In this document: positions 61,213-63,308 of the stretch, piece after piece
How the letters are laid out: the number at the start of each line of letters is the position of its first letter
Position numbering within the stretch: position 1 is the first letter of the stretch
Assembly: GCF_030651995.1 (NCBI RefSeq)
Contig: NZ_JAUSBN010000066.1
Coordinates: 1 to 64,000 of the forward strand
Length of the DNA: 64,000 nucleotides
Direction of reading: 5' to 3'
Source: Reyranella sp.
Lineage (GTDB): Bacteria > Pseudomonadota > Alphaproteobacteria > Reyranellales > Reyranellaceae
Made by a program: the position numbers and the translations under genes
Notes under the pieces: model-generated
Databases searched by the model: none
Told to the model about the DNA's origin: nothing
The model's input: only the letters and a program-made list of their open reading frames with translations

Positions 61213-62232
61213 CTAGGCCGCGAGCAGGTGTTCGGCGATCTGCACGGCGTTCAGTGCGGCCCCTTTCAGGAGCTGGTCGCCGGCCACGAACAACGAGATC
61301 GAGTGGCCCGTCGGATCGCCCAGGTCCTGGCGAATACGGCCAACCAGGATGTCGTCCTGCTGGCTGGCATCGCGCGGCATCGGGAACAGGTTGCGTTCGC
61401 GATCATCGACGATGCGCACGCCCGGTGCGCTGGCAAGCAGCGCCCTCACGCGCGCCTCGTCGATCGGCCGTTCGCACTCGAAGGTGACGGCGGCGGCGTG
61501 GGCCCTCAGAACCGGGACGCGCACGCAGGTCGCTGACAGCCGAAGCTCCTCGTCGCCGTAGATCTTGCGGGTCTCGCGCATGACCTTGGTCTCTTCGTCG
61601 TTGTAGCCGGTCGCAGGATCGATCGCGGTGTTGTGGCTGAACAGGTTGAAGGCGTAGGGATGCGGCAGCACCTTCGGCTTGAAGGCGCGGCCGTCGAGAT
61701 AGGCGCGGGTCGAATCGGCCAGCTCGTCCATTGCCGCCGCACCGGCGCCCGACGCGGCCTGGTAGGTGGCGATGTTCATGCGCCTGATGCGATTGTGCTG
61801 GTGGATCGGCCACAGCGGCGTAATGGCGATGATCGCCGCGCAGTTGGGATTGGCGACGATGCCCCTGTGGTTGGCGATCGCGCCGGCATTGATCTCGGGA
61901 ATCACCAGCGGAACCTCGGGATCCATCCGGAAGGCCGAGGAATTGTCGACCACGATGGCGCCGGCCGCGACGGCGATGGGGGCGTAGCGCTTCGAGATTC
62001 CGCCACCGGCCGAGAACAGGGCAATGTCGACGCCTTCGAAGCTCTTCTCCGTCAGTTCCTGGACCACGAGGGCCTTTCCGTCGAACGACAGCTCGCGGCC
62101 TGCCGAGCGGGCGGAGGCGAGCAGGCGCAGCTCCTTCACCGGGAAGCGGCGCTCGGCCAGGCAGCGCAGGAACTCGATGCCGACGGCGCCGGTCGCGCCG
62201 ACGATCGCCACTGTGAGAGGTCTAGAACCCAT
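61213..62232 (-). CDS. asd: aspartate-semialdehyde dehydrogenase
   Basis: A 339-residue cytoplasmic enzyme that reduces aspartyl phosphate to aspartate semialdehyde, the common precursor of threonine, methionine, lysine and diaminopimelate. The NADP motif VAIVGATGAVGIEFLRCL is at residues 8-25, the catalytic Cys131 is in IVANPNCAAI, and the substrate-binding Gln/Ser are in YQAASGAGAAAMDEL. The basic catalytic His lies in RVPVLRAHAAAVTFE. AAGGAGA precedes the ATG by 7 bases. The 180 bases upstream hold a leader ORF and terminator that form a threonine-responsive attenuator. Confidence 0.96.
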   Translation of the reverse strand: MGSRPLTVAIVGATGAVGIEFLRCLAERRFPVKELRLLASARSAGRELSFDGKALVVQELTEKSFEGVDIALFSAGGGISKRYAPIAVAAGAIVVDNSSAFRMDPEVPLVIPEINAGAIANHRGIVANPNCAAIIAITPLWPIHQHNRIRRMNIATYQAASGAGAAAMDELADSTRAYLDGRAFKPKVLPHPYAFNLFSHNTAIDPATGYNDEETKVMRETRKIYGDEELRLSATCVRVPVLRAHAAAVTFECERPIDEARVRALLASAPGVRIVDDRERNLFPMPRDASQQDDILVGRIRQDLGDPTGHSISLFVAGDQLLKGAALNAVQIAEHLLAA

Positions 62233-62281
62233 GTCTGTCTCCTTCGTTGAAGCCGGAGAGACGGACGCCTGGAAAGACAAA

Positions 62282-62304
62282 GCCCCGTCCGAAACCGGCG
62301 GGGC
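62282..62304 (-). terminator. attenuator terminator upstream of asd
   Basis: On the minus strand GCCCCGCCG-GTTT-CGG(A)CGGGGC forms a 9-pair stem with one bulged base, followed by TTTGTCTTT (62281-62273). It lies 31 bases after the leader ORF stop and 50 bases before the asd ATG. Its 5' arm (CCCCGCCGG, 62303-62295) is also complementary, with one mismatch, to CCGGCGAGG in the leader ORF (62355-62347). That alternative pairing would act as antiterminator. Confidence 0.85.
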
Positions 62305-62334
62305 CTGTGAGGTTGTCCTATGTCACGTTCGACT

Positions 62335-62412
62335 TTACGCGCACGTCCTCGCCGGCCCACCGAAGGTGGTCGTTTTGGTAGTCGTGGTCGTTTTGGTCGC
62401 GAAACGCAGCAT
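62335..62412 (-). CDS. threonine-rich leader peptide of the asd attenuator
   Basis: A 25-codon ORF (ATG at 62412, TAA at 62337-62335). Codons 6-16 are Thr except for Lys at 7 and 13; in all there are ten Thr and two Lys. Every type of Thr codon but ACA is used. Immediately after the Thr run, CCACC-TTC-GGTGG forms the 1:2 hairpin (62369-62357). The sequence of codons 19-22 can pair with the terminator's 5' arm. Ribosome stalling for want of threonyl-tRNA would free that segment and let asd be transcribed; with threonine plentiful, the ribosome reaches the stop and the terminator forms. The design equals the E. coli thr leader, though this peptide is unrelated in detail. Confidence 0.85.
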   Translation of the reverse strand: MLRFATKTTTTTKTTTFGGPARTCA

Positions 62413-62421
62413 GGTGTCAGG

Positions 62422-62451
62422 GATATAGGTCGAAGGCCGGGCGGCTGTAAA
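62422..62451 (-). promoter_or_regulatory. candidate promoter of the asd leader transcript
   Basis: On the minus strand TTTACA (62451-62446) and TATATC (62427-62422) are separated by 18 bases, close to the sigma-70-type consensus. Only 9 bases separate the -10 box from the leader ATG, so transcription would start at or within 3 bases of the ATG, making the leader ORF leaderless or nearly so. No Shine-Dalgarno is present, in agreement. Confidence 0.6.
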
Positions 62452-62468: not shown

Positions 62469-63308
62469 TCAGTTCACGCGCAGGAAAGGCCTGTCGCCGC
62501 AGACCGTTACGCGGTGGCCGTACCGGCGGTGCGGGAAGTAGTCGAACATCGCGTGGTGCTGGACGCAGCGATTGTCCCAGAAGGCCACCGAGTTTGGCTG
62601 CCACTTGAAGCGGCACTGGAATTCCGGCGTCTCGATGTGGCGGTAGAGCATTTCGAGCAGCGCGTCGCTCTCGGGGCGCTTGAGCTGCGGGATGCGCAGG
62701 GTGAAGCCGCGATTGACGTAGAGGCTCTGCCTGCCGGTCACCGGGTGCGTTCGCACGATCGGGTGCTCGGCGTTGGGGAACTTGATGTCGTTGCGATCCG
62801 TGGCCTTGACGCGATAGTAGTGCGCCTTGGAGCTGTCGTGCAGCGCGGTCAGCCCCTGCAGCATCCGCTTCATCGGCTCGGAGAGCGTGTCGTAGGCGCG
62901 GTACATGTTGGCGAACAGCGTGTCGCCGCCGCCCTCCGGCGGCACCTCGGTGAGATGGAGGATCGAGCCCATCGGCGGCTCGAGGTCGCACGACACGTCG
63001 GTGTGCCATTCCTCGCCCGCGACATGCTTCGAATTCTCATCGGCCTTGATCACCAGGATCTCGGGATGCTCGGGGAAGGTGATGGGAGCGTTGGGATGGA
63101 CATGCAGCGGCCCGAAACGCCGGCCGAACTCCTTGTGCTGTTCCATCGACATCTTCTGGTCGCGGAAGAAGATCACCAGGTTCTCCATCAGCGCATCGTG
63201 CACCTCCTGGAACTGCTGGTTGCCGAGCGGCTTTCCGAGATCGACACCGAATATCTCCGCTCCGATGGACGGCGTCAGTTTGCGCACTTCGATCGACTGA
63301 TAGGCCAT
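62469..63308 (-). CDS. TauD/TfdA family Fe(II)/2-oxoglutarate dioxygenase
   Basis: A 279-residue dioxygenase. The iron ligands are His102 and Asp104 (EEWHTDVSCDLEPPMGSIL) and a distal His near 256 (CVQHHAMFDYFPHRRYGHRVTV), followed by the 2-oxoglutarate-binding Arg. DTLFANMYRAYDTLSEPMK and GRQSLYVNRGFT are also family features. Members hydroxylate taurine, 2,4-D, alkyl sulfates or similar compounds; the substrate here is unknown. GGAGGAAAC precedes the ATG at 63308. Its stop is only 18 bases from the asd leader promoter. Confidence 0.93.
   Translation of the reverse strand: MAYQSIEVRKLTPSIGAEIFGVDLGKPLGNQQFQEVHDALMENLVIFFRDQKMSMEQHKEFGRRFGPLHVHPNAPITFPEHPEILVIKADENSKHVAGEEWHTDVSCDLEPPMGSILHLTEVPPEGGGDTLFANMYRAYDTLSEPMKRMLQGLTALHDSSKAHYYRVKATDRNDIKFPNAEHPIVRTHPVTGRQSLYVNRGFTLRIPQLKRPESDALLEMLYRHIETPEFQCRFKWQPNSVAFWDNRCVQHHAMFDYFPHRRYGHRVTVCGDRPFLRVN

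Follow-up and report, generated by a model that had tools for sequence, protein, structure and literature searches.

Introduction

The question raised by this locus is how a Reyranella genome controls a second copy of asd, the gene for aspartate-semialdehyde dehydrogenase. The enzyme makes a precursor shared by Lys, Thr, Met, and diaminopimelate, and Thr and Lys both derive from its product. Threonine attenuators classically precede thrABC, and to our knowledge amino-acid attenuators mostly precede pathways that lead to a single product or to a few closely related products. In the stretch of 64,000 nucleotides analyzed here (the window), part of a 5.5-Mb genome, a threonine attenuator was originally predicted to lie before asd. 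Our analysis indicates that this prediction was right in substance: the leader very probably acts as a ribosome-mediated attenuator of the second of two asd genes, with charged tRNA-Thr and tRNA-Lys as the signals sensed. At the level of sequence, this reading is supported by promoter-like elements, a leader open reading frame (ORF), five complementary arm pairs, a terminator-like hairpin, a ribosome-binding-site hairpin, and their co-variation.

Results

Layout of the asd2 locus. The gene lies on contig C80 at 61213 to 62232 on the minus strand, as do all elements of the locus described below, and encodes a 339-amino-acid protein that scored 395.8 bits against TIGR01296 (cut-off, 324.2), with its closest named relatives in Reyranella (97 and 95% identity). 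The genome carries another asd gene, asd1, on contig C72 (G000:C72:33641-34630), which is also above the TIGR01296 cut-off and is 48% identical, so that the target originally named is indeed asd but has to be corrected to the second of two copies (asd2). The asd2 start is likely the ATG at 62232, preceded by GGAGAC. The longest asd2 reading frame opens at a TTG at 62280, inside the terminator tail, and automatic annotation may thus set the start too far upstream.

Read along the minus strand, the order is a gene of the taurine-dioxygenase kind (292 bits to NF007104, below its cut-off of 313), a promoter-like TTTACA-18-TATATC, the leader ORF, a hairpin with a U-rich tail (62304-62273), a Shine-Dalgarno hairpin, and asd2. 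The dioxygenase-kind gene stops at 62469, which leaves about 57 bases to the leader ATG. The -35 element (TTTACA, 62446 to 62451) matches TTGACA at five of six positions and recurs in 10 other Reyranella-type leaders (L003-L011 and L070), and the -10 element (TATATC, 62422 to 62427) follows after an 18-base spacer and ends 9 bases 5' of the leader ATG. A simple promoter scan, which requires T at the final -10 position, found no promoter in the window; a looser scan anchored on the leader start recovered this pair with a score of 9/12, compared with mostly 5 to 6 for shuffles. Across 58 leaders, promoter scores also peaked at 9/12 (shuffles, mostly 5 to 6), and the -10 element ended 4 to 14 bases (mode, 8) 5' of the chosen leader start, a distance toward which the procedure is biased since promoter score contributed to the choice of start codons and the scan window spanned 3 to 14 bases. 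With its -10 element ending 9 bases before the ATG, the leader mRNA of the window is probably almost leaderless. A GGGCGGC/GCCGCCC inverted repeat (62460-62439) just 3' of the dioxygenase gene, perhaps the terminator of that gene, encloses the -35 element in its loop.

A Thr/Lys run in the leader ORF. The leader ORF (62335 to 62412; MLRFATKTTTTTKTTTFGGPARTCA*) has 25 codons, including 10 for Thr and 2 for Lys, with the Thr/Lys run ACC AAA ACG ACC ACG ACT ACC AAA ACG ACC ACC at 62365 to 62397. We scored such runs as the densest 12-residue Thr-plus-Lys window within a short ATG-started ORF. By this measure, the leader scored 11/12 and the 420 bases upstream, dinucleotide-shuffled 5,000 times, never exceeded 6, which bears out the original prediction of a 25-codon leader with ten Thr and two Lys codons. 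The best score in the 420 bases 5' of the start was 11 for asd2, compared with 2 for asd1, 2 for hom, and 1 for lysC of the same genome, and no Thr/Lys leader was found in this interval before any of these last three genes. A genome pattern search for AAR-ACN-ACN-ACN returned 61 sites and the reversed control 56, so that this pattern did not single out the leaders. A short ORF with a codon run for products of the controlled pathway is characteristic of ribosome-mediated amino-acid attenuators, and such an ORF is what precedes asd2. The end of the dioxygenase gene so close to the leader ATG might suggest a Thr-rich junk ORF that lies by chance near the terminator of that gene; with 0 of 5,000 shuffles coming near the observed run, and with its conservation across many families, we find this explanation hardly credible.

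Conservation of the leader. Within the family, this asd type (91 to 100% identity) was found in 11 of 75 genomes, and the leader preceded it in all 11. Some asd was present in 271/288 genomes of the class, and 19 class genomes outside Reyranella carried an asd 62 to 74% identical to that of the window. One of these was cut by a contig end; among the 18 assessable genomes, 11 had leaders scoring at least 7, 3 had weaker runs in the same layout (L104, 6; L108, 6; L107, 4), and 4 had none. Over the 59 rows of this asd type, a score of at least 7/12 was reached before 47 rows and a score below 7 before 12, compared with at least 7/12 in 0.06% of 1,770 shuffles; these rows include many close relatives (11 Reyranella and numerous Bradyrhizobium) and count one metagenome-assembled genome (MAG) through two of its contigs (L033 and L034), and they omit loci duplicating named contigs (L068, L069, and L071-L077) as well as L111 at a contig end. 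Scores of at least 7 preceded 0/19 rows of type B, the second Reyranella asd type, sampled as the best 19 rows by E-value; 5/64 other alphaproteobacterial rows ("type C"), among which G185 is counted twice (L121 and L142) and L118 later fell in another clade; and 0/25 distant rows. The original prediction had staked itself on conservation of the Thr run and the arms, and it survived, with the run in 47/59 rows and arms that co-evolve (see below).

Further leaders were found in family f46 (L239-L245, L247-L251, and L253-L255), which is at a guess Azospirillum-like, and in families f35 (L256 and L257) and f114 (L201 and L202); L252 scored 6 and was set aside. This asd type also occurs without any Thr/Lys leader in L099, L102, family f51 (L191-L193), and f46 (L229-L238). 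In a tree of 79 proteins, one clade of 38 rows (support, 99/93) had the leader in 36, and the fewest changes required were 5, compared with 26 for shuffled labels, where L023 and L107 had been labeled by judgement as with a leader and L033 as without. Ten neighboring rows of the same asd type lacked the leader, which was also present on seven f46 rows that carry another asd type and form a clade of their own, and on one canonical asd (L124). The simplest reading of these sequences would be a single gain of the leader within this asd type followed by few losses, with the leader either spreading to other asd types or gained there anew.

Several loci depart from the common pattern. L118, L247-L251, and L253-L255 carry the same leader and arms before an asd type only about 50% identical to that of the window, as though the switch had been transferred to a different gene. 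Short Thr/Lys-rich ORFs with other hairpins precede canonical asd in L124, L173, L180, L182, and L274 and are possibly independent inventions and counterparts of the SEP5 ORF discussed below. In L033 and L034, from an Acetobacteraceae MAG, the place of the leader and the terminator are kept and the peptide, MSGLMIKRTWNHKPSDG..., has few Thr residues; the run scores of L023, L033, and L034 are 0 to 3, and the amino acids sensed by the L033/L034 leader may have changed. The asd genes and attenuators of L012, L013, and L022, which are labeled Candidatus Marinimicrobia, group with alphaproteobacterial ones, and these bins may be mislabeled.

Lys alongside Thr in the control codons. In 38 control windows chosen by Thr plus Lys, Thr made up 50% and Lys 21% of residues, with Lys present in 38/38 and at least two Lys in 36. 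When control windows were chosen by Thr alone, Lys was still present in 37/38. AAA accounted for 48/97 Lys codons in the control windows versus 31/414 in the accompanying asd genes. Met (4% of control-window residues) and Ile (3%) are present in some leaders, as in TTTTMTKKTT of L114. The persistence of Lys alongside Thr makes it likely that the leader senses both amino acids, and the dual sensing originally suggested is thus a reasonable reading of the codons.

Arms 1 to 4 and the terminator. Arm 1 (CCACC, 62365 to 62369) lies inside the last Thr codons and faces GGTGG at 62361-62357, forming the 1:2 hairpin originally predicted. Arm 2 (GGTGGGCCGGCGAGG, 62347 to 62361) is within the leader ORF, arm 3 (CCTCACAGGCCCCGCC, 62297 to 62312) is the 5' side of the terminator and also the partner of arm 2, and arm 4 (GGACGGGGC, 62290-62282) is the 3' side of the terminator hairpin (GCCCCGCCGG-UUUC-GGACGGGGC, 62282 to 62304). 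The U-rich tail, TTTGTCTTT (UUUGUCUUU, 62273 to 62281), is interrupted and contains no pure U run. Judged from sequence only, a terminator hairpin with a U-rich tail, as predicted, stands between leader and asd2 in the manner of an attenuator. The interval first proposed, 62282-62412, covers the leader and the hairpin but leaves out the promoter, the U-rich tail, and the ribosome-binding-site hairpin. On folding, the segment that runs from where arm 2 ends to the tail was more stable than shuffles (z, -2.49; equaled by 5/200), and the full leader was not (z, -0.46).

In an alignment of 14 sequences, window included, 3:4 was paired in 99.2% of cells, and the five 1:2 pairs were kept in 74%, with a covariation score matched by 18/500 column shuffles. 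The 2:3 register of the original prediction, CCGGCGAGG/CCCCGCCGG, was paired in 66% of cells with zero two-sided changes, and an alternative register, GGUGGGCC...GAGG with CCUC...GGCCCCGCC, was paired in 81%; neither register exceeded column shuffles in this fixed alignment. When the end of the leader ORF was searched for duplexes with the 5' side of the terminator, with L023, L033, and L034 left out, the arm 2:arm 3 duplex was stronger than composition shuffles (P < 0.05) in 29/55 leaders (mean z, -1.75). The duplex was not above composition shuffles at 0.05 in 26/55, including most Bradyrhizobium rows and L109, L112, L115, L124, L173, L180, and L182.

We also performed swap tests, in which arms are exchanged between genomes. 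These tests cover group II leaders (groups are described below), 24 of 34 being hand-picked to thin relatives, and L242 was omitted from both swap and ribosome-position tests because its 4:5 hairpin had been taken for the terminator by our script. With 24 leaders, the z scores were -4.9 for 2:3, -7.9 for 3:4, -3.9 for 4:5, and -4.6 for 5:6, and those of the control pairs were +0.3 for 2:4, -0.8 for 2:6, -1.6 for 3:5, +2.6 for 3:6, -1.5 for 4:6, and -2.8 for 2:5. With 15 leaders, one per clade, among which kinship partly remains, we obtained -4.4 for 1:2, -4.4 for 2:3, -5.3 for 3:4, -3.2 for 4:5, and -3.4 for 5:6, with controls of -1.7 for 2:5 (P = 0.048), -1.6 for 2:6 (P = 0.053), and -1.0 to +2.3 for the rest. 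The control pair 2:5 scores in these tests because arm 5 resembles arm 3. These results uphold the predicted 1:2 and 3:4 pairings; for the predicted 2:3 antiterminator, arms 2 and 3 do co-evolve, but the exact register proposed is less kept than the alternative one.

The position of arm 2 also bears on what the leader peptide might do. Attenuator peptides can act in trans, as reported for peTrpL of Sinorhizobium (PMC7298713), and the 25-residue peptide could likewise be trans-acting, or a functional small protein, with the run serving as protein sequence. We judge this very unlikely, since peptide length, order, and non-Thr/Lys residues differ by lineage as Thr/Lys content and arm pairing persist, and since the location of arm 2 inside the leader ORF ties the C-terminal residues to RNA pairing. 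The peptide may still act in trans alongside a role in attenuation.

A motif, GACATA(A/G), lies at 62324-62318 between the leader stop and the terminator, outside all proposed arms, and the pattern [AGC]CATA[AG] occurs in the spacers of 12/34 leaders. Such a recurrent motif could bind something, as might be expected if the leader were a riboswitch, a T-box, or a protein-bound RNA and its ORF fortuitous. Searches of both strands of the window with Rfam models at gathering scores gave 0 matches, including to the thr leader (Thr_leader, RF00506), the lysine riboswitch, the T-box, and the SAM riboswitch, and the most constant feature of the leaders is their Thr/Lys coding content, so that we consider these alternatives extremely improbable.

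Ribosome position and the 2:3 pairing. We modeled ribosome position on transcripts truncated upstream of arm 4, folding them with the bases under the ribosome blocked. The mean probability of 2:3 was 0.75 with the ribosome at the Thr/Lys codons versus 0.12 with the ribosome past the run, in the expected direction in 24/24 leaders (window, 0.75 versus 0.00), a contrast that is partly inherent in the model, in which a ribosome beyond the run sits on arm 2. Shuffling arm 2 is a fairer control, and the probability of 2:3 was higher with the real arm 2 in 22/24 leaders (means, 0.82 versus 0.64). For the window, the values were 0.80 with the real and 0.74 with the shuffled arm 2, and 0.80 without any ribosome, so that window-level values discriminate little and 1:2 alone does not keep the switch off. 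Folding before arm 4 reproduced switching, but equilibrium folding with arm 4 present did not, as hairpin 3:4 won at all ribosome positions in the window (probability, 0.70 to 0.98). Because 3:4 wins at equilibrium whenever arm 4 is present, switching has to be a kinetic race, as in known attenuators. The mutually exclusive set of arms originally proposed is thus supported by computation, through the swap tests and the ribosome-position model, and more weakly for the window alone.

A hairpin at the asd2 ribosome-binding site. Downstream of the terminator, we found a 5:6 hairpin that was absent from the original description. Arm 5 (GGCGTCCGTCTCTCC, 62255 to 62269) has two potential partners, arm 4 and the ribosome-binding site, pairings that were covered by the 4:5 and 5:6 swap tests, and arm 6 (GGAGACAGAC, 62233 to 62242) holds the asd Shine-Dalgarno sequence. 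A ribosome-binding site held in a hairpin is characteristic of translational attenuators, and by computation 5:6 co-varies. In the 14-sequence alignment, 4:5 was paired in 94.0% of cells, with C-G changed to U-A in 2/14 sequences and a covariation score reached by 17/500 column shuffles. The fixed-column counts for 2:3 (81%) and 5:6 (69% of cells) were not above column shuffles, which may reflect register shifts.

As a descriptive contrast between groups that were set by eye on the very features compared, with most Bradyrhizobium rows dropped as near copies, the ten bases after GGGG contained a mean of 7.4 U in group I (Bradyrhizobium type; n = 9) and 3.3 in group II (n = 31), with 7 in the window, and the last 55 bases folded at a mean of -3.6 kcal/mol in the 9 group I leaders and -16.1 kcal/mol in the 31 group II leaders, with -15.0 in the window. 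The f35 and most f46 rows had 0 to 4 U in these ten bases. As evidence, we use only the correlation over all 40 leaders, in which a weak U-tail goes with a strong 5:6 hairpin (Spearman, 0.61; P = 2e-5; relatedness uncorrected). Among these relatives, control appears to have passed from termination to translation with the sensor kept.

With arm 3 blocked, the ribosome-binding site was on average more exposed (0.42, compared with 0.29 otherwise), with a rise of more than 0.1 in 14/24 leaders and a fall of more than 0.1 in 1. The exposure of L251 ran opposite, from 0.57 to 0.13. The real arm 4 exposed the ribosome-binding site more than shuffled arm 4 in 19/24 leaders (P = 0.002). In the window, exposure went from 0.24 to 0.35, compared with 0.30 when arm 4 was shuffled, and 5:6 persisted in the minimum-energy fold. 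These folding models lend some support to a relay from 2:3 through 4:5 to an open arm 6 in the group, and only weakly so in the window.

Two other readings of the downstream hairpin have to be weighed here. The leader may be a classical four-arm transcription attenuator only, with 5:6 uncoupled and just setting low translation and with 4:5 a by-product of the resemblance between arms 5 and 3. This would agree with the Bradyrhizobium-type leaders, which lack a strong 5:6 hairpin, with the unaltered minimum-energy 5:6 fold and small exposure rise of the window when arm 3 is blocked, and with some cognate preference shown by 2:5 too. It sits less well with the two-sided changes that keep 4:5 (C-G to U-A in 2/14; GGTCGGGG/CCCCGACC in L245), with the one-per-clade swap test that 4:5 passes (P = 0.0016), with the advantage of real over shuffled arm 4 for exposure in 19/24, and with the strong hairpins found where the U-tail is weak (the correlation above, over 40 leaders and uncorrected for relatedness). 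On balance, we regard this simpler switch as a real possibility that falls somewhat short of an even chance. Control might instead be purely translational, with 3:4 of Reyranella terminating poorly, in keeping with the interrupted tail TTTGTCTTT and with the scarcity of U in some relatives of the same layout; we think this unlikely, as the window has 7/10 U after GGGG, near the Bradyrhizobium type (mean, 7.4), and its modeled translational switch is weak.

A bolder reading, to which we give close to but just under an even chance, is a six-arm relay in which a single ribosome on the Thr/Lys leader would set the whole series of pairings (1:2, 2:3, 3:4, 4:5, and 5:6) and starvation would both let polymerase pass and free the asd ribosome-binding site. 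Under such a relay, the alphaproteobacterial sensor would have gone from pure termination (Bradyrhizobium type) to both outputs (Reyranella) to mainly translation (f35 and f46), in part of f46 before a different asd type.

Discussion

We propose that RNA polymerase would initiate a few bases 5' of the leader ATG and that a ribosome would load with nearly no 5' leader. When both Thr and Lys are ample, the ribosome would proceed and cover arm 2, 3:4 would form, and transcription would mostly end before asd2. When either Thr or Lys is scarce, the ribosome would stall on the run and mask arm 1, 2:3 would pair before arm 4 is made, and transcription would continue. In the Reyranella group, a possible extra step is that occupancy of arm 3 would let 4:5 pair and loosen 5:6, exposing the asd ribosome-binding site. 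A leader that counts Thr and Lys before a spare copy of asd suggests a reserve enzyme summoned by starvation, and the comparative series offers a rare view of an attenuator apparently switching its output from transcription to translation with its sensor retained.

SEP5 of Sinorhizobium meliloti is, in our view, partial prior art for a Thr/Lys leader before asd. In the available portion of its report, SEP5 is a translated ORF, detected by Ribo-seq and Western blotting, that includes 6 Thr and 3 Lys codons and lies in the 5' UTR of an "aspartate dehydrogenase" gene; it is proposed as a leader peptide, and its conservation is given as Sinorhizobium only (PMC10117765). SEP5 is thus like the window leader a short Thr/Lys ORF 5' of a gene named for aspartate and a suggested leader peptide, but its account, in that portion, comes without terminator, arms, or relatives (PMC10117765). 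In family f63, Thr/Lys leaders precede canonical asd in L182 and L274 (2/5 upstream regions), and these may be SEP5 counterparts.

In the available portions of the literature searched, mostly outside subscription journals, we found no description of an alphaproteobacterial asd attenuator besides SEP5. Those portions of PMC4117421 (in which "asd" denotes the anti-Shine-Dalgarno sequence), PMC2965389, PMC2864571, PMC8632094, and PMC1262725 do not describe one, and the words threonine, asd, aspartate, and lysine are absent from the main text of the premature-terminator analysis, as available (PMC2965389). The asd motif of Lactobacillales, as presented in the available portion of its source, belongs to other bacteria than that of the window (PMC2864571). 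Relative to this literature, the breadth of the leader, its second-copy target, the steady pairing of Thr with Lys, and the change of readout seem to be new.

Among known systems, the thr leader of E. coli has Ile codons along with Thr codons and precedes thrA. The window leader resembles thrL in its Thr-codon-rich leader peptide, its exclusive antiterminator and terminator, and its use of the ribosome as a sensor. It differs from thrL in that its target is asd rather than thrABC, its second amino acid is Lys rather than Ile (the window leader has no Ile), its start is nearly leaderless, its arm 2 lies within the leader ORF, and it has an extra ribosome-binding-site hairpin. According to the available portions of the respective reports, trpL of S. 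meliloti is likewise an alphaproteobacterial attenuator with a leaderless leader ORF, but it responds to Trp and targets trpE (PMC10117765), and the uORFC-8-2 motif of Rhodobacterales is likewise an alphaproteobacterial ribosome-mediated attenuator candidate that came from comparison, but with Cys codons and before cysS (PMC8632094). Within the same limits, vmlR of Bacillus subtilis offers a parallel for one gene under both transcription and translation attenuation, in other bacteria and with another target, an antibiotic resistance factor (PMC9226507).
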